Below the pieces are notes generated by a model, which was not told the origin of the DNA, searched no databases, and was given only the letters and a program-made list of their open reading frames with translations. Position numbers and translations under genes: made by a program. Positions 778 to 35,956 of a stretch of 36,840 nucleotides of DNA are shown here, piece by piece; the first letter of the stretch is position 1, and each line of letters opens with the position of its first letter. Location of the stretch: IMG/VR virus record IMGVR_UViG_3300036466_000309, positions 1 to 36,840 of that record. One strand, written 5' to 3'. The stretch comes from a virus.

Positions 778-1236
778 TTATTTAAATTCTTGTGGAGGTA
801 GTACTGTAATGATTGTACCAGTTCCTAAATCAATTTCTTTATCAAAGGCTTTTACGCTCGTATGTCTTCCAATCACTTCTAATGCTCTAACTGCTTCTTT
901 CAAGTTTGTTTTATAAACTTCCATAGCAACCGCTTTTCCATCAATAAATCTACTGCTTATATGTGGCCGCTTACCTTTTGCTATTTCATAGAGTTCTATT
1001 GCTTCATTCAATACCCATTCTGCGCTAATGCTAAGCTTTTCTTCTATCACTTGCTTTAATTGTGTTATTTTTTCTTGTATCTTAGGGTTCTTAAGTAGCT
1101 TGTGAGCTTCCACCCCTGCTACTGTTTCACTTTTTGCACTATAACCTGCTCTAATGTAACTTTGTGTAGCATTGAAGTCTATTATATACTCTTGACAAAA
1201 TAAGTCTTGTTTGTGTGTTAGTTTTTTTCTATTCAT
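778..1236 (-). CDS. terS: Terminase small subunit
   Basis: This 152-residue protein opens with LTHKQDLFCQEYIIDFNATQS and continues IRAGYSAKS, then VEAHKLLKNPKIQEKI. That is the N-terminal helix-turn-helix pattern of the Terminase_2 family of small terminases, of usual length. It recognises phage DNA and loads the large subunit (34718-35956) for packaging. Its ATG overlaps the stop of a 41-residue reading frame (ATGA at 1233-1236), so translation is probably coupled. In the circular genome the antirepressor and a small membrane protein lie between the two terminase genes, an unusual order. Confidence 0.9.
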   Translation of the reverse strand: MNRKKLTHKQDLFCQEYIIDFNATQSYIRAGYSAKSETVAGVEAHKLLKNPKIQEKITQLKQVIEEKLSISAEWVLNEAIELYEIAKGKRPHISSRFIDGKAVAMEVYKTNLKEAVRALEVIGRHTSVKAFDKEIDLGTGTIITVLPPQEFK

Positions 1237-4786: not shown

Positions 4787-5213
4787 GGCTTTTATATTCT
4801 TTTTTATAACTTTCTGCAATTTCTTTAAAGTACTCTTTTATATCATCTACTAAAAGCTTATTTTTCTTTATAAAATCGGCTTTAGTATTTTGATGATAAG
4901 CATTTGAACCCCATGTATGAAGCATTCCAATAAGTGGCACAGTTTCATAATCATTTCTTACTGGGTTTCTTCCATTTATATGGTGTATGTGCATCTCATT
5001 TGCTCCTACACCTCTTTTTGCCAATATTCCAGTTACTACACATGGTTGAGTTCCTAACCACTTTAGATAATCTTCATCAATTACATCGTATTTTTTTACT
5101 TTTGTTTTTTTTATTCCTATATTGTTCCATTTAGTTGGTTTTTTGCCAAATGTACTTTGTTTTTTCTCTTTGTTTTTTTGTAGCTGTTGTTCTTTTGATA
5201 AACCACACATCAT
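4761..5213 (-). CDS. HNH-type nuclease (Ref/DUF968-like)
   Basis: The 150-residue protein has a lysine-rich N-terminus, then DEDYLKWLGTQPCVVTG (Cys58) and HIHHINGR (His77, His78). Then come VPLIGMLHTWGSNAYHQ (His99, His107) and a C-terminal helix. The order of a 'PC..TG' turn, an 'HH' pair before 'G' and an 'H' in the last helix matches the HNH fold of phage Ref and DUF968 proteins. It is likely a DNA nicking or cutting enzyme in recombination. The ATG at 5213 overlaps the previous stop. The 3' end doubles as promoter copy 1. Confidence 0.75.
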   Translation of the reverse strand: MMCGLSKEQQLQKNKEKKQSTFGKKPTKWNNIGIKKTKVKKYDVIDEDYLKWLGTQPCVVTGILAKRGVGANEMHIHHINGRNPVRNDYETVPLIGMLHTWGSNAYHQNTKADFIKKNKLLVDDIKEYFKEIAESYKKEYKSLDKFSKTC

Positions 5214-13594: not shown

Positions 13595-14192
13595 TTAAAC
13601 TCCTAAATTTGAAATAATTACATACCAAAGTGCCACACCTTGAAATGCTCCGTAAATTAATTCTTGATTTTCCCATCCTTTAGAATAATTGACTATCCAA
13701 AACTTACCATTATAATTTAATTTTTTTCCAATTACGCACGCTATCGGAAAAACAATACCTAATAATATTCCAATGATTATTGCTTCAATATAACTTATTA
13801 ATCCGATAAAAGCAAAAAAATAAATATAAAGGAGTCCACCAATAAAAACCTCTTATCGCTAATGCGACTTGACAATATAGCTTATAGTTTTTTCTTTCTT
13901 TTACTATCAAATTGGCTGTTTTGTGAATATATGGAAAATCGTAGCCTTCCAAATCGTCATAATTTTCTGGTGCTTCATCTGCTGTTAAATATCCAACCCA
14001 TTTACCCCAACCCATCGACTCGCCTAATATATATAAAGATAAAGCTATAAATCCGTAGAATGGGTCAAAACTTAAAAATCCAACTACTAAACCGATATAA
14101 AGAGAATAAATCACATTTCCAGTTATAGCAAAACTAAAGATTCTGAAGATATCCCCAGTTCCTCTTAATCTGTTTAAAATTATTTCTAGTAT
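13595..14192 (-). pseudogene. Membrane protein gene broken by a frameshift in a T7 run
   Basis: Two frames together encode one protein. The first gives MIYSLYIGLVVGFLSFDPFY up to WWTPLYLFF. A run of seven T on the coding strand (plus A 13814-13820) then breaks the frame; dropping one T continues AFIGLISYIEAIIIGILLG to YGAFQGVALWYVIISNLGV and a stop at 13597-13595. The N-terminus is also unclear. The frame extends upstream through LNRLRGTGDIFRIFSFAITG without any ATG; a GAGGA site stands 6 bases before an ATA codon at 14192, and a GTG lies at 14114. Three or four transmembrane segments are likely. It may be a real mutation, +1 frameshifting, or a homopolymer reading error. Confidence 0.65.
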
Positions 14193-14536
14193 ATAAAATC
14201 CTCTTTTGTTTTACTAATATCTAATTCAAAAGAATCTGATTGAGCTTTTATATTTGTTATAAATGCTACCATTTCATCTAAATAAGCTTGACCATAAATC
14301 CCTAATTGAGCATTCATTTGCTTAAACTGTGGATATAAATCAATGATTATTTTTCCTGCTTCTTTTTTTATTTCAGAAACTCTATTTTCTTCAATTGCTT
14401 TTTCATTTAATAAAATAGCTTCTTTAATTATTTCTTCTGATACTTCTGTTAAATCTTCAAGAAAAACATATTTCTCACCGTCCATCACCACTACTTTACC
14501 TATAACATCGTAAATATAATCTACTTTCGCTTTCAT
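14186..14536 (-). CDS. Hypothetical protein, 116 residues, last gene of the DGR region
   Basis: It begins MKAKVDYIYDVIGKVVVMDG then EKYVFLEDLTEV, a beta hairpin, and continues helical to SKTKEDFIY. Similar short proteins with 'KVIYIYD..G..V..G..YIF.EDLT' are seen near phage tail fibre genes and may assist fibre assembly. It overlaps the reverse transcriptase stop by 4 bases (14533-14536), so it is co-translated with it. Whether it takes part in the DGR is not known. Confidence 0.6.
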   Translation of the reverse strand: MKAKVDYIYDVIGKVVVMDGEKYVFLEDLTEVSEEIIKEAILLNEKAIEENRVSEIKKEAGKIIIDLYPQFKQMNAQLGIYGQAYLDEMVAFITNIKAQSDSFELDISKTKEDFIY

Positions 14537-15591
14537 GCTGTATACCTTTGCAAATGTAATTTTAGTTTTTTATTATCAGCCCATTGTATATGTCCATGCC
14601 AAGAGCCTAAAAAACTTCTTAATTTTTCTTTTTGATTATATCTTAAATATTTTTTAATTTTTCTTTTTGCATTTGTTAAACTTGATTTTCTTATTAATTT
14701 AGAAGTTTTTCTTATTCTATAACCTAAAAAATTAATTGATTTTTCTTGCACATCCTCAATACTCCATCTGCTAAAATTTAATTTTAAAAATATTCCTATA
14801 AATTTTTTAATTTTCTTTTGTATCATAATTAAATAATTTTTATCATCTGATATTATGATTGAGTCATCTACATATCTAAAATAGTTTTTTACTTTTAATT
14901 TTATCTTTACGAATCTATCGTAAATATGTCCATAAACATTTGCCAATAGTTGACTTAATAAATTCCCTATTTTTACTCCGTATTTTGAAATAAATAAGTA
15001 TATTATTCTAAGTGTTCTATTGTCTTTAATTTTATTTTCTATTTCTTTTTTTAAAACAATTGGATTTATACTTGCAAAATATTTTTTAAAATCCATTTTT
15101 AAGCAATATAGCTTTTTATTTTCAGTAGTTAATCTTCTAATTGTGGCTTGAACTTCAATCACTCCCTTATGAACACCCTTATTTTTTCTGCATCCATAGG
15201 AACAACTATAAAAAGTTCTTTCAAAAATTGGCTCTATTATATTATTTATTGAATGTTGAACCACTCTATCTTTAAAAGGTAATGCGCTTATTATTCTTTT
15301 TTTAGGTTCAAATACTTCAAAAGTATAATAGTTTCCTATTTTGTATTTTTCTTTTATGAGTTCTTGTTGTATTCGATAAAGGTTATATTCTAGATTTTCT
15401 TTAAAAATTAAATGACCTTTAGAATATTTGTTTTTACCTTTGCATGTTTTTAAGTAGGCATCTCTGATGTTATCTATATCAACTATTTTCTCAAAGATGT
15501 TTTTGTATTTTTTTCCCATAATGCTATCTTCTAGTTTCGCTATTGCTACTCTTAGTTTTATAGACCCCTTTAATTTACTTTCGTAAGACAA
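14533..15591 (-). CDS. DGR reverse transcriptase
   Basis: The 352-residue protein has the RT domains in order: PFKDRVVQHSINNIIEPIFE (about residues 105-124), YSCSYGCRKNKGVHKG, LKMDFKKYFASI (motif A, Asp167), KIGNLLSQLLANVYGH and FRYVDDSIIIS (YVDD 240-243). The 'IGN..SQ' form of the fourth motif is typical of DGR enzymes. It copies TR RNA into cDNA with errors at adenines. The start is TTG at 15591, with AAGG upstream inside hairpin 15599-15616; an ATG at 15519 (residue 25) is an alternative, near where family members usually begin. It overlaps the next gene by 4 bases. Confidence 0.95.
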   Translation of the reverse strand: MSYESKLKGSIKLRVAIAKLEDSIMGKKYKNIFEKIVDIDNIRDAYLKTCKGKNKYSKGHLIFKENLEYNLYRIQQELIKEKYKIGNYYTFEVFEPKKRIISALPFKDRVVQHSINNIIEPIFERTFYSCSYGCRKNKGVHKGVIEVQATIRRLTTENKKLYCLKMDFKKYFASINPIVLKKEIENKIKDNRTLRIIYLFISKYGVKIGNLLSQLLANVYGHIYDRFVKIKLKVKNYFRYVDDSIIISDDKNYLIMIQKKIKKFIGIFLKLNFSRWSIEDVQEKSINFLGYRIRKTSKLIRKSSLTNAKRKIKKYLRYNQKEKLRSFLGSWHGHIQWADNKKLKLHLQRYTA

Positions 15592-15598
15592 ATAGACT

Positions 15599-15647
15599 GA
15601 CCTTACTTAATAGGTCGTACCATAGAATCCTTGAATTCTATGAGTAC
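15599..15647 (-). ncRNA. Paired hairpins between TR and reverse transcriptase (part of TR RNA)
   Basis: Two abutting stems lie just 3' of TR on the coding strand. GTAC plus CATAGAAT pair across a 6-base loop (plus 15617-15628 with 15635-15647, one bulged base). GACCT 15599-15603 pairs with AGGTC 15612-15616. The first stem begins 5 bases after the 3' end of TR. In DGRs the RNA between TR and the RT gene folds and takes part in priming of cDNA synthesis, which is the probable role here. The second stem also covers the AAGG in front of the RT start. Confidence 0.65.
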
Positions 15648-15651
15648 AAAG

Positions 15652-15772
15652 TTTGTCACTGCAACAACGCGAACCATTGTTCCAATTCGAGTTGGTCAAA
15701 GTGTTGTTCCAATTCGAACAACGAGAACCCGAAATACCAGCAGCGTTGTCACGATTGCCCCCAAGTTGGGCG
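15652..15772 (-). repeat. DGR template repeat (TR)
   Basis: These 121 bases align without gaps to VR at 16146-16266. There are 19 differences, every one at a coding-strand A (T on the plus strand): 11 A to T, 5 A to G, 3 A to C. The other 92 positions and 10 of the 29 adenines are identical. In the VR frame TR would read AQLGGNRDNAAGIS, then GSRCSNWNNTLTNSNWNNGS, so most target codons are AAC or AAT. TR starts immediately after the Avd stop. It is much richer in GC than its surroundings. It is the unchanging source for mutagenic homing. Confidence 0.97.
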
Positions 15773-15773
15773 G

Positions 15774-16115
15774 TTATCTATTTGCCTTTGTTCTAATCAT
15801 ACTGTTTAATATTTTACCGACTTCCGCAATTAAAATACCTGCATGTTGAGTTTGATTTAAAGAAATTGATTTAATCTCTTTACTTGCAAAGAATCTAATA
15901 TAAAACCTTATTGAAGCTAAATTTGCATCAGCTTCATAAAGTTTTGATATTTGAGATGTTTTAACTGCTTTATACAAACATTCGACTTGTTCAAAAAGAA
16001 GATTTATAAATTTTTGTTTTACAAATCCATCTTTTCTATCTATTGCTTGTATTTTTGGATAAATATATTTTACAAAATCTTCGAACTTCTGGATTATAAC
16101 TAAATTTTCATTCAT
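15774..16115 (-). CDS. avd: DGR accessory variability determinant (Avd-like)
   Basis: The 113-residue helical protein has KFEDFVKYIYPKIQAIDRKD, FVKQKFINLLFEQVECLYKA, LYEADANLASIRFYIRFFAS and a last helix AGILIAEVGKILNSMI. This is the four-helix-bundle pattern of Avd proteins (23S-IVP-like fold), which form a pentameric barrel that binds the RT and RNA. Size and position (between VP and TR-RT) are as expected. The ATG at 16115 is 15 bases after the VP stop; the ribosome binding site is weak, so coupling to VP is possible. Its stop touches TR. Confidence 0.88.
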   Translation of the reverse strand: MNENLVIIQKFEDFVKYIYPKIQAIDRKDGFVKQKFINLLFEQVECLYKAVKTSQISKLYEADANLASIRFYIRFFASKEIKSISLNQTQHAGILIAEVGKILNSMIRTKANR

Positions 16116-16130
16116 GCTCGCTTTCGCTCA

Positions 16131-17600
16131 CTAATCAAGAATCAAGAGGTCACTGCAACAACGCGAACCATAGGCCCAAAACGAGTAGGACAAAGTGTCG
16201 TCCCAAAACGAACAACGAGAACCCGAAATACCAGCAGCGTAGACACGACCGCCCCCAAGTAGGGCGATGTAAGCATTTGTATAAACTTGACCTCTTGAAT
16301 CAGCGATTGAGCTCCATCCTGTAGCTGTTGAATTTCCTATTTCACTAGACCAAATATATTGATTTCCAGTTGCTAACTCCATACCGTATCTGCTTGTTAA
16401 AGCTGGAACATGTCCGTTTTGTCCTAACACTGGCTCAGCTTGCGAAAGTCCTTCTTGAACACCATACGCTATATCTGTAAATTCTTTATAGCTTATTAAA
16501 TCTTTTTTTGATGAAATTGCTAAATCGTAGGCTTGAAATGGGGTTAGCTTTCCATAAGTTACAGTTCCATTTCCGCCGAATTCTAGTGGTATCTTTGGAT
16601 ACCCTCTTCCGAATTCAGTTCCACCGCCTGCAATTTGTGCAAAAGGTCTTGAATATCCATTTATTCCATATTCAATATCATTTAAATAAATGTCATACCA
16701 CTTGACACCATTACAGAACATTCCTTTATTGCCTTTTTTGGCATTAGAAATATATTTTAAATCCCAAAAAGTATAAGAGTTAATTCCTCTTAATTTTACC
16801 ATATCTGATTCTGTTTTATTTCCAGATATTACCTCTGTTTCTGTTGTTAATCCGTAGTGAAAACCACCGATTATCTTATCAGTCAAGGCATCGTTTGAAC
16901 TTAGATAAAAACTTCCATCGGTCTTAGCATAAACATAATAATCTTTGCCTTCTGTTTTTATTTCTGGAATAACTAAATCTGTATTTAGACTAAGATCATA
17001 ATTTGCATCTAAAGATATTCTATTTGCACCAACTGCAACTACAAAACCACTAGGTATTCTTATGGTTGATGGATTTACCTTTGTAAACAATGGTACACGC
17101 TTGTTCGGTTTTACAAATAGATTACTTTCCACTATGATTTCTTTTCGATTAGATATCGAAGCAATAATATCAAATCTGCTTAAACTTACTGAGTACTTTA
17201 TTGTGTAGATTTCATCTGTTTTTAAATCCCCAGCTACCAGTGCTATACCATTTAAAAAAACTGATTTAGTTGCTAAAGTTTTTATTTTAATAGTTGTTGC
17301 GCCCGTATTTTCAACTTTAGGAGTAAACGTTAAAATCATATCATCGAAAAAAGTTTCGCTTTCTGTTATCGTTGAACTTCTACTCAATAGAATATTATTT
17401 ACAGTTCCCGTATCTTTATAATAATTTGACTTAGTCATAATATCTATTGATTTTAACAATTGATTATTTTCTTCTCCATTTAATGCAATAAATGGTGTGA
17501 TTACATTTTTGTTTTCATTAAAGATTGAGTTATACTCACTTGCTCTTACTATTCCTGCATCTGTTTGATCGCCATCTATTTTACTTATAAAATCTAACAT
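16131..17600 (-). CDS. DGR target: variable tail fibre/adhesin with C-type-lectin fold
   Basis: The 489-residue protein begins MLDFISKIDGDQTDAGIVRA, a fibre-type N-terminus, followed by beta-rich repeats such as ENTGATTIKIKTLATKSV. The C-terminal part from about residue 265 (LRGINSYTFWDLKYISNAKK to WSSEIGNSTATGWSS) has the formylglycine-generating-enzyme/C-type-lectin look of DGR targets. VR forms the last 40 residues: GGGRVYAAGISGSRCSFWDD onward to GSRCCSDLL. The variable codons lie on this terminal ligand-binding face, so it is the probable receptor-binding protein. AAAGGTATGAA precedes the ATG. Confidence 0.92.
   Translation of the reverse strand: MLDFISKIDGDQTDAGIVRASEYNSIFNENKNVITPFIALNGEENNQLLKSIDIMTKSNYYKDTGTVNNILLSRSSTITESETFFDDMILTFTPKVENTGATTIKIKTLATKSVFLNGIALVAGDLKTDEIYTIKYSVSLSRFDIIASISNRKEIIVESNLFVKPNKRVPLFTKVNPSTIRIPSGFVVAVGANRISLDANYDLSLNTDLVIPEIKTEGKDYYVYAKTDGSFYLSSNDALTDKIIGGFHYGLTTETEVISGNKTESDMVKLRGINSYTFWDLKYISNAKKGNKGMFCNGVKWYDIYLNDIEYGINGYSRPFAQIAGGGTEFGRGYPKIPLEFGGNGTVTYGKLTPFQAYDLAISSKKDLISYKEFTDIAYGVQEGLSQAEPVLGQNGHVPALTSRYGMELATGNQYIWSSEIGNSTATGWSSIADSRGQVYTNAYIALLGGGRVYAAGISGSRCSFWDDTLSYSFWAYGSRCCSDLLILD
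16146..16266 (-). repeat. DGR variable repeat (VR)
   Basis: These 121 bases form the 3' end of the variable protein gene and stop 12 bases before its stop codon. Compared with TR, thirteen codons differ by one to three adenine substitutions: Q to L, N to G, D to V, N to Y, N to F, N to D twice, T to S, N to Y, N to F, N to A, N to Y and K to L. The 3' side holds GGTTCGCGTTGTTGCAGTGA, unchanged between the repeats, where homing would begin. Beyond 16145 the sequences diverge. Confidence 0.96.
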
Positions 17601-34717: not shown

Positions 34718-35956
34718 TCATCTCAACAAAGATGGTTTTTTTATTATATCCACAATACTTGGTGTAATATTTTCAATGAATACTGCATATCTAAAAGAAT
34801 CTACCATATCATCTATTTCTTTAACTGGCTCGTCCAGTGGCTCTCCGTTTTTATCTAATTTCCAACTATAAGTATCCATTTCGTTTATTAAATCTTTTGA
34901 ATCTTTAGTTATAAATACATTCATTGATTTTATTTTATCTATTCCAGCGGTTACCATTTTCAAAGCACCTTTTACATTGAATCCTGCATCTTCAAAATCT
35001 GCTATTCTTGCTGGTTCTGCGCTATCTAGATAACCTCTCAAATCTTGTAGGTAAGGATACTTTGATTTAAGTTTTCTAATTAGTTCGCTGTTTGTCAAGT
35101 GGCTTTCGCATAGTAATTGTTTAATATATAGATTATTTCCTATTATTTTTACTTCACTTACTGCTGTAGGGTGGTTGTATCCAAAATCAATACCATATCT
35201 GTGTATTTCTGCATCACTTGGTAAATCATCAACTAGTGTATATTTTGTGTATATTAAGCCTTTTAAAACTCCCCACTTACCTAATGCGTAAACCTGATAA
35301 TATTCATAGTTTGTTTTCTTTAAACTTTCAAGTACGCCAATGTACACATCATCTAAATATTTATTATCTAAATATGTGGTGTGTGTAACTGTTGCCGATG
35401 GATCTACATTATCAAAAAATCTCTTTTTTAACCAGTGTTTAGAAGATATGGGATTAAAACTTAATATCACTTGTTTATAGTTTATTAAGTGACTTCCTCT
35501 TAGTCTTAAGTCAAGTTGTGTAAAATCATCAAGTGTAAAATCTGATGCTTCTTCCATCCATACACCCGTGATGTCTTTTATCGACTTTAATTTTTCTTTA
35601 TTATCTAAACCTCTAAATAGTATCTTATTCCCATTTACACAAGAAATAGTCATTTCTCCTGTTGGTGCTGTTGTGTACCTAAAAAGAGTTTGTAACCCCA
35701 TAGACTCAATAGCTCCTATTATTTCAGCTCTTGCACTTTCTCTTATAATTACTTCAACTTTTCTAACTACCAAAAACTTATGATTTTTTTCCGTTAACAT
35801 TCGATAAACTATTTTTTGACCTACAAATACACTTTTTCCACTTCCAGCACCACCATATAATACTAAGTATCTATCAGTATTCATATATAGTGGTATATAT
35901 GCGTTGTTTGTAAGCTTTGGTAGATGCTTGAAGTCTACAGTAATGTTTTTACTCAT
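34718..35956 (-). CDS. terL: Terminase large subunit (PBSX/XtmB type)
   Basis: The 412-residue protein has the ATPase Walker A GGAGSGKS (residues 35-42), an acidic Walker B-like GVWMEEASDF (131-140), and the motor coupling segment VILSFNPISSKHWLKKRFF. The nuclease part shows HRYGIDFGYNHPTAV, GYLDSAEPARIADFEDAG and DDMVDSFRYAVF with the acidic metal ligands. It packages DNA into the head and cuts it. The C-terminus ends just at promoter copy 6. The start has AAAGAATAA before the ATG. Confidence 0.95.
   Translation of the reverse strand: MSKNITVDFKHLPKLTNNAYIPLYMNTDRYLVLYGGAGSGKSVFVGQKIVYRMLTEKNHKFLVVRKVEVIIRESARAEIIGAIESMGLQTLFRYTTAPTGEMTISCVNGNKILFRGLDNKEKLKSIKDITGVWMEEASDFTLDDFTQLDLRLRGSHLINYKQVILSFNPISSKHWLKKRFFDNVDPSATVTHTTYLDNKYLDDVYIGVLESLKKTNYEYYQVYALGKWGVLKGLIYTKYTLVDDLPSDAEIHRYGIDFGYNHPTAVSEVKIIGNNLYIKQLLCESHLTNSELIRKLKSKYPYLQDLRGYLDSAEPARIADFEDAGFNVKGALKMVTAGIDKIKSMNVFITKDSKDLINEMDTYSWKLDKNGEPLDEPVKEIDDMVDSFRYAVFIENITPSIVDIIKKPSLLR

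Follow-up and report, generated by a model that had tools for sequence, protein, structure and literature searches.

A BPP-1-type diversity-generating retroelement whose rewriting site is probably marked by a hairpin with tandem G·A pairs, an apparently new design shared by many relatives

How does a diversity-generating retroelement (DGR) mark the site that it rewrites when no perfect inverted repeat follows that site? The question is raised by IMG/VR record IMGVR_UViG_3300036466_000309, of which positions 1-36,840 were analyzed (hereafter the window, the whole stretch of 36,840 nucleotides (nt), to which coordinates refer). A DGR occupies 14533-17600 on the minus strand, with the variable protein gene (VP), avd, the template repeat (TR), an RNA spacer and the reverse transcriptase gene (RT) in an order identical to that of BPP-1 (mtd-avd-TR-brt). 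In BPP-1, the variable repeat (VR) is followed by a GCGGGGCC-GAAA-GGCCCCGC hairpin that is required for efficient homing (PMC3240598). We found no BPP-1-like perfect GC-rich stem (7-10 bp, GRNA loop) within 75 nt after the VR of the window. Our preferred reading, to which we give a probability of about 0.8, is that this is a BPP-1-type DGR diversifying a receptor-binding tip protein, and that its rewriting site is marked by a G·A-interrupted, sense-strand hairpin after VR. The DGR itself is of a known kind, an additional BPP-1-type member; the target hairpin is apparently a new variant, widespread in relatives (about half of those examined), and the text of the open-access papers searched, figures and subscription papers being outside that search, yielded no account of a DGR hairpin interrupted by G·A.

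The window hairpin has a GAAA loop, a 2-bp inner stem, tandem G·A pairs and two outer pairs, one of them T·G. It fills the gap between VP and avd, its first base being the last of the VP stop codon and its end lying directly before the avd ATG. On both strands of the window together, this core, with its inner bases complementary, is found at 16116-16131 and nowhere else.

We retrieved 80 IMG/VR relatives with an RT-profile search and located VR and TR in most of them by adenine-tolerant self-comparison. Because the hairpin classes were defined post hoc, after inspection, the flanks of TR were used as a control. A GNNA-loop hairpin followed VR in 48 of 50 distinct sites (25 with two-nt G·A, 3 with three-nt G·A and 20 with perfect stems, the remaining 2 having neither design) and followed TR in 0 of 49 sites. 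The layout GA-GC-GNNA-GC-GA recurs in many relatives, flanked by outer arms that include GT/AC, GG/CC, AGTG/CACT and ATAGTG/CACTAT, and loops of the G·A hairpins include GACA, GATA, GCAA and GTAA, that is GNNA rather than GRNA. To follow covariation, we used a set of 65 distinct sites from a search that fixed GAGCGNNAGCGA only, leaving both outer pairs free. Outer pairs 1 and 2 were Watson-Crick in 58 and 57 of these sites respectively (shuffle means 22.8 and 20.1, maxima 36 and 33), with C-G, G-C, T-A and A-T exchanging for one another; the inner pairs vary as well (GC/GC, GT/AC, AC/GT). A search for GC-GRNA-GC after the conserved VP end, with unconstrained flanks, yielded at least 71 distinct sites, and the matches listed comprise 42 Watson-Crick, 16 GA/GA, 2 with G·T and 11 other flanks; among these matches, GA/GA makes up 16 of the 18 that are double non-Watson-Crick.

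The motif also has a polarity. Pattern scans retrieved GA/GA in 95 contigs, the reverse-complement TC/TC in 5 and AG/AG in 13. Of the 49 loci that only the GA pattern had picked up, 38 had a DGR RT on the same strand within 1.5 kb downstream (85 of 100 with RT-selected loci added); for the control patterns, an RT lay within 1.5 kb in 0 of 5 (TC/TC) and 0 of 9 (AG/AG) loci. That the TC/TC and AG/AG versions lack DGR linkage suggests a sense-strand DNA hairpin instead of a symmetric cruciform. A cruciform on both strands, with the G·A pairs as tolerated mismatches, is what is thought likely for BPP-1, whose supercoiled target was cleaved on both strands by T7 endonuclease I (PMC3240598). Here we consider it improbable: the antisense strand would hold T·C mismatches, the sense-strand polarity just described is strict, and for 59 of 61 sites the sense strand had the lower computed energy, though by only about 0.8 kcal/mol on average.

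The two designs also interchange. On the RT tree, a quick tree with several long branches, we counted 7 changes between hairpin designs, 5 of them forced by starred branches, and all classified members of the window's RT clade (8 members) have the G·A design. One pair of close relatives, L027 (perfect stem) and L028 (G·A), have RTs that are 95.7% identical, in an alignment spanning the whole block. This exchange bears on a role of the motif in RNA, either as a hairpin in the VP-avd mRNA or as a purine-rich ribosome-binding site for avd. Such a role would suit a motif with a purine-rich coding strand, placed between the stop codon of VP and the start codon of avd. Tandem G·A pairs and GNRA loops are stable in RNA too. 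We nevertheless hold it to be unlikely, since the close relatives L027 and L028 have one design in place of the other, a ribosome-binding site would not predict base-pair covariation, some loops (GACA and GATA, for example) fall outside GNRA, and the motif sits where the BPP-1 hairpin does, which was shown to work as a target-DNA structure (PMC3240598). Least likely is an ordinary DGR whose motif is a BPP-1-type inverted repeat decayed under relaxed selection, which would accord with the residual homing that persists after stem deletion or disruption (PMC12875486; PMC3240598) and with the weak outer pairs of the window hairpin, but would lead one to expect mixed mismatches in place of the near-uniform GA/GA, whereas the outer stems covary, the G·A design lasts in deep RT clades, and neither the TC/TC nor the AG/AG version is DGR-linked.

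Several individual relatives merit description. In L030, the stretch after VR (around 3190) reads TT-GA-GGC-GATA-GCC-GA-AA, a G·A hairpin whose inner stem has 3 bp, in a clade that otherwise has perfect stems. Contig IMGVR_UViG_3300049574_000329 (L058/L103) has VP-like ends at two places, and a G·A hairpin of the three-nt form comes after both (GAA/GAA and GTA/GAA), suggesting one DGR with two targets. In Marinomonas phage P12026 (L268), the Mtd gene is followed (about 4841-4890) first by a three-nt G·A hairpin and a short distance further on by a 7-bp perfect stem whose loop is GCAA; the stretch examined had no annotated RT. A 368,758-bp contig of jumbo-phage size (L015) has a DGR and a duplication of 774 nt that probably represents repeated VP genes. 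Six IMG/VR elements (L009-L014) have RTs 55-61% identical to that of the window; together with a prophage in a Sulfurimonas metagenome-assembled genome (L003) and a locus in a Campylobacterota genome (L008), they have the same DGR type and a G·A hairpin wherever VR was identified (in L003 in its three-nt form), in phage backgrounds that differ from that of the window. The RT of L003 (6001-6956) is split by a frameshift in the assembly, though its TR/VR differences are adenine-only; the frameshift is either decay or an assembly error.

Under the preferred reading of a G·A-interrupted sense-strand hairpin, rewriting would proceed as follows. By analogy with BPP-1, an RNA spanning TR and spacer would bind RT and Avd, cDNA synthesis on TR would insert bases at random opposite A, and this cDNA would then replace VR. 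The hairpin directly 3' of VR would mark the site for rewriting, on a plan of a GNNA loop, a 2-3 bp stem, an invariant G·A tandem (5'-GA/3'-AG) and a covarying outer stem. Tandems of the 5'-GA/3'-AG type are unusually stable in DNA. Most likely the sense strand alone folds, when replication or transcription leaves it single-stranded, and sheared G·A pairs probably continue the stack; the antisense strand has T·C mismatches at these positions. The hairpin could keep the sense strand open or be bound by the homing complex, letting the antisense cDNA anneal to the initiation of mutagenic homing site (IMH), and either hairpin design appears to be usable by a single machinery. In BPP-1, targets are preferred for homing if their sense strand serves as lagging-strand template, and the stem-loop was suggested to keep the target open (2026 study, PMC12875486). 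The strand polarity of the G·A motif fits this preference and argues against an obligatory cruciform. On balance, we lean towards regarding the motif as a widespread second class of DGR target element, namely a DNA hairpin specific to one strand, organized around an invariant G·A tandem and well formed by the sense strand only. If true, target recognition would take place through a single-stranded sense-strand hairpin, not a cruciform, probably in BPP-1 too.

Some results weigh against the preferred reading. The outer stem of the window hairpin is weak, with one T·G and one G-C pair, and nearest-neighbour DNA energies do not favour folding (+1.3 kcal/mol for the hairpin, -0.8 for the inner 2-bp hairpin alone). 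These parameters are blind to sheared pairing, as they give the same value to GA/GA and AG/AG, and such models neither support nor refute the proposed sense-strand folding. Homing of BPP-1 was almost lost when its stem was disrupted or shortened, so that function of a broken stem would be unexpected without special G·A pairing (PMC3240598). Finally, we sought close relatives sharing the same TR, in which VR variation could be viewed directly, and found none that was near-identical; present-day activity of the DGR is inferred from the TR/VR pattern.

This pattern is that of adenine-specific mutagenesis. TR and VR align without gaps at an offset of 494, and all 16 differences (10 A>T, 5 A>G and one A>C) fall on TR adenines, of which there are 26, and none on the 92 remaining bases (P = 2.3e-13). 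They alter VP residues 447, 451, 453, 454, 465, 467, 468, 471, 472, 474, 476 and 477, and the record holds one VR copy only. An earlier note on this DNA had described the same gapless, adenine-only relationship, which stands; its length of 121 nt with 19 of 29 adenines changed does not, the true homology being 118 nt. The three extra adenine differences (AAA in TR, CTC in VR) lie where homology ends, identity beyond them being at chance level. The note had also placed VP, Avd, TR and RT in a single block and called the DGR complete. All four lie where it put them, on the minus strand, and every part testable from sequence (Mtd-type VP, Avd, TR/VR, RNA and RT) bears out completeness; the DGR RNA and the target hairpin, both present, were missing from its account. 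Coordinates are collected in the table.

Table. Features of the DGR and terminase genes in the window (aa, amino acids; ORF, open reading frame).
Feature	Coordinates	Strand	Description
VP	16131..17600	-	489 aa, Mtd homologue
VR	16149..16266	-	118 nt, 3' end of VP; 12 VP codons differ from the TR-encoded residue
IMH-like 3' end of VR	16149..16171	-	final 23 nt same as TR, adenines unmutated
Target-site hairpin, variant design	16116..16131	-	GT-GA-GC-[GAAA]-GC-GA-GC
avd (accessory variability determinant)	15774..16115	-	113 aa; PF22296 bAvd 1e-28; phrog_3206 4e-15
TR	15655..15772	-	118 nt, 26 adenines
IMH*-like 3' end of TR	15655..15677	-	23 nt same as VR
DGR RNA 3' spacer, Rfam RF03022 Phage_DGR	15523..15646	-	between TR and RT
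DGR RT	14533..15519	-	328 aa from ATG 15519; IGNLLSQ, YVDD
Small ORF directly 3' of RT	14186..14536	-	no Pfam or PHROG match
Terminase small subunit	778-1236		
Terminase large subunit	34718-35956		

VP residues ~160-488 align to BPP-1 Mtd in a match that runs through the C-terminus (PDB 1yu0, Mtd-P1, E 1e-26), and VP matched PF21916 (Mtd second domain, 4e-12) and phrog_11262 (tail, 1e-56). Its N-terminal 160 aa showed no homology to the Mtd N-terminal domain. Across tail types, Mtd-type tips seem to be joined to differing attachment domains, and L003 has a 979-aa fibre. A fold of VP predicted from a two-sequence alignment was discarded (predicted local distance difference test score, pLDDT, 28). 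The spacer matched the whole RF03022 model (1-127) with 60.7 bits against a gathering score of 50 (E 4e-8); the corresponding spacer RNA of BPP-1 is the site of self-primed cDNA synthesis. Because this full-length RNA occupies 15523-15646, an RT start at TTG 15591, which falls within it, was rejected in favour of the ATG just past it, where the start MGKKYKN aligns with MGKRHRN of BPP-1. The YVDD and DGR-type IGN..SQ motifs reported earlier were recovered in the RT, which matched PF00078 (1e-14). It further matched phrog_1423 (4e-98) and, as the top PDB match, the BPP-1 RT (8ub7, 9e-76).

The phage around the DGR had been called a Mu-like myophage. A contractile tail is supported by a tail sheath (phrog_165, 3e-45) and baseplate genes (phrog_6, 5e-24); the Mu-like label is not supported, as the phage has terminase genes and no transposase family (MuA/MuB-type transposition genes) matched among the 40 ORFs scanned. 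The contractile tail is common to Mu and this phage, but also to non-Mu myophages, and sequence matches point to a contractile-tailed, terminase-packaging phage. Its genes further include a tape measure, baseplate hub and wedge, portal, head, an AntA/KilAC antirepressor, exonucleases and spanin- and endolysin-like genes. Nearly all genes lie on one strand and the terminase subunits at opposite ends of the record, a layout that suggests a circularly permuted, nearly complete phage genome. No relative of the portal protein was found in viral_contigs, and portal matches in Campylobacterota were weak (7 of 298 genomes, best 31% identity); RF03022 was present in 3 of 397 Campylobacterota genomes. 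With RT kin in L003 and L008, a Campylobacterota host is plausible.

Compared with the BPP-1 DGR, the element of the window shares the Mtd-type VP, bAvd, the DGR RNA family, an RT of 43% identity to Brt, adenine-only differences in the TR/VR body and a GAAA-loop structure directly after VR, and differs in its contractile-tail gene cluster and its VP N-terminus. The annotated TR and VR of BPP-1 differ at four non-A positions in their 3' end, whereas those of the window are identical through the shared 3' end; the BPP-1 stem has 8 perfect bp, whereas that of the window is broken by the G·A tandem. The hairpin/cruciform elements of Guo et al., 2011 (PMC3240598) likewise lie after VR, are absent after TR and have a sense-strand 4-nt loop of the form G...A, but their stems are uninterrupted, GC-rich inverted repeats of 7-10 bp, in contrast to the 2-3 bp, G·A tandem and outer stem found here, and their loops are GRNA, whereas GCAA and GTAA (GNNA) occur here as well. 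That study left undecided whether a one-strand hairpin or a two-strand cruciform is formed. A natural, strand-asymmetric hairpin that covaries around a fixed G·A tandem and is interchangeable with a perfect stem would offer a direct test, and an alternative recognition element for laboratory DGR systems. It also corrects the rule by which DGR targets are searched, since about half of the BPP-1-type elements examined would escape programs that require a perfect inverted repeat. The nanoarchaeal DUSEL4 DGR (PMC4372165), with GRA trinucleotide loops and a hairpin within the target gene, departs from the BPP-1 hairpin as well; it does so in the loop, whereas the type found in the window does so in the stem.

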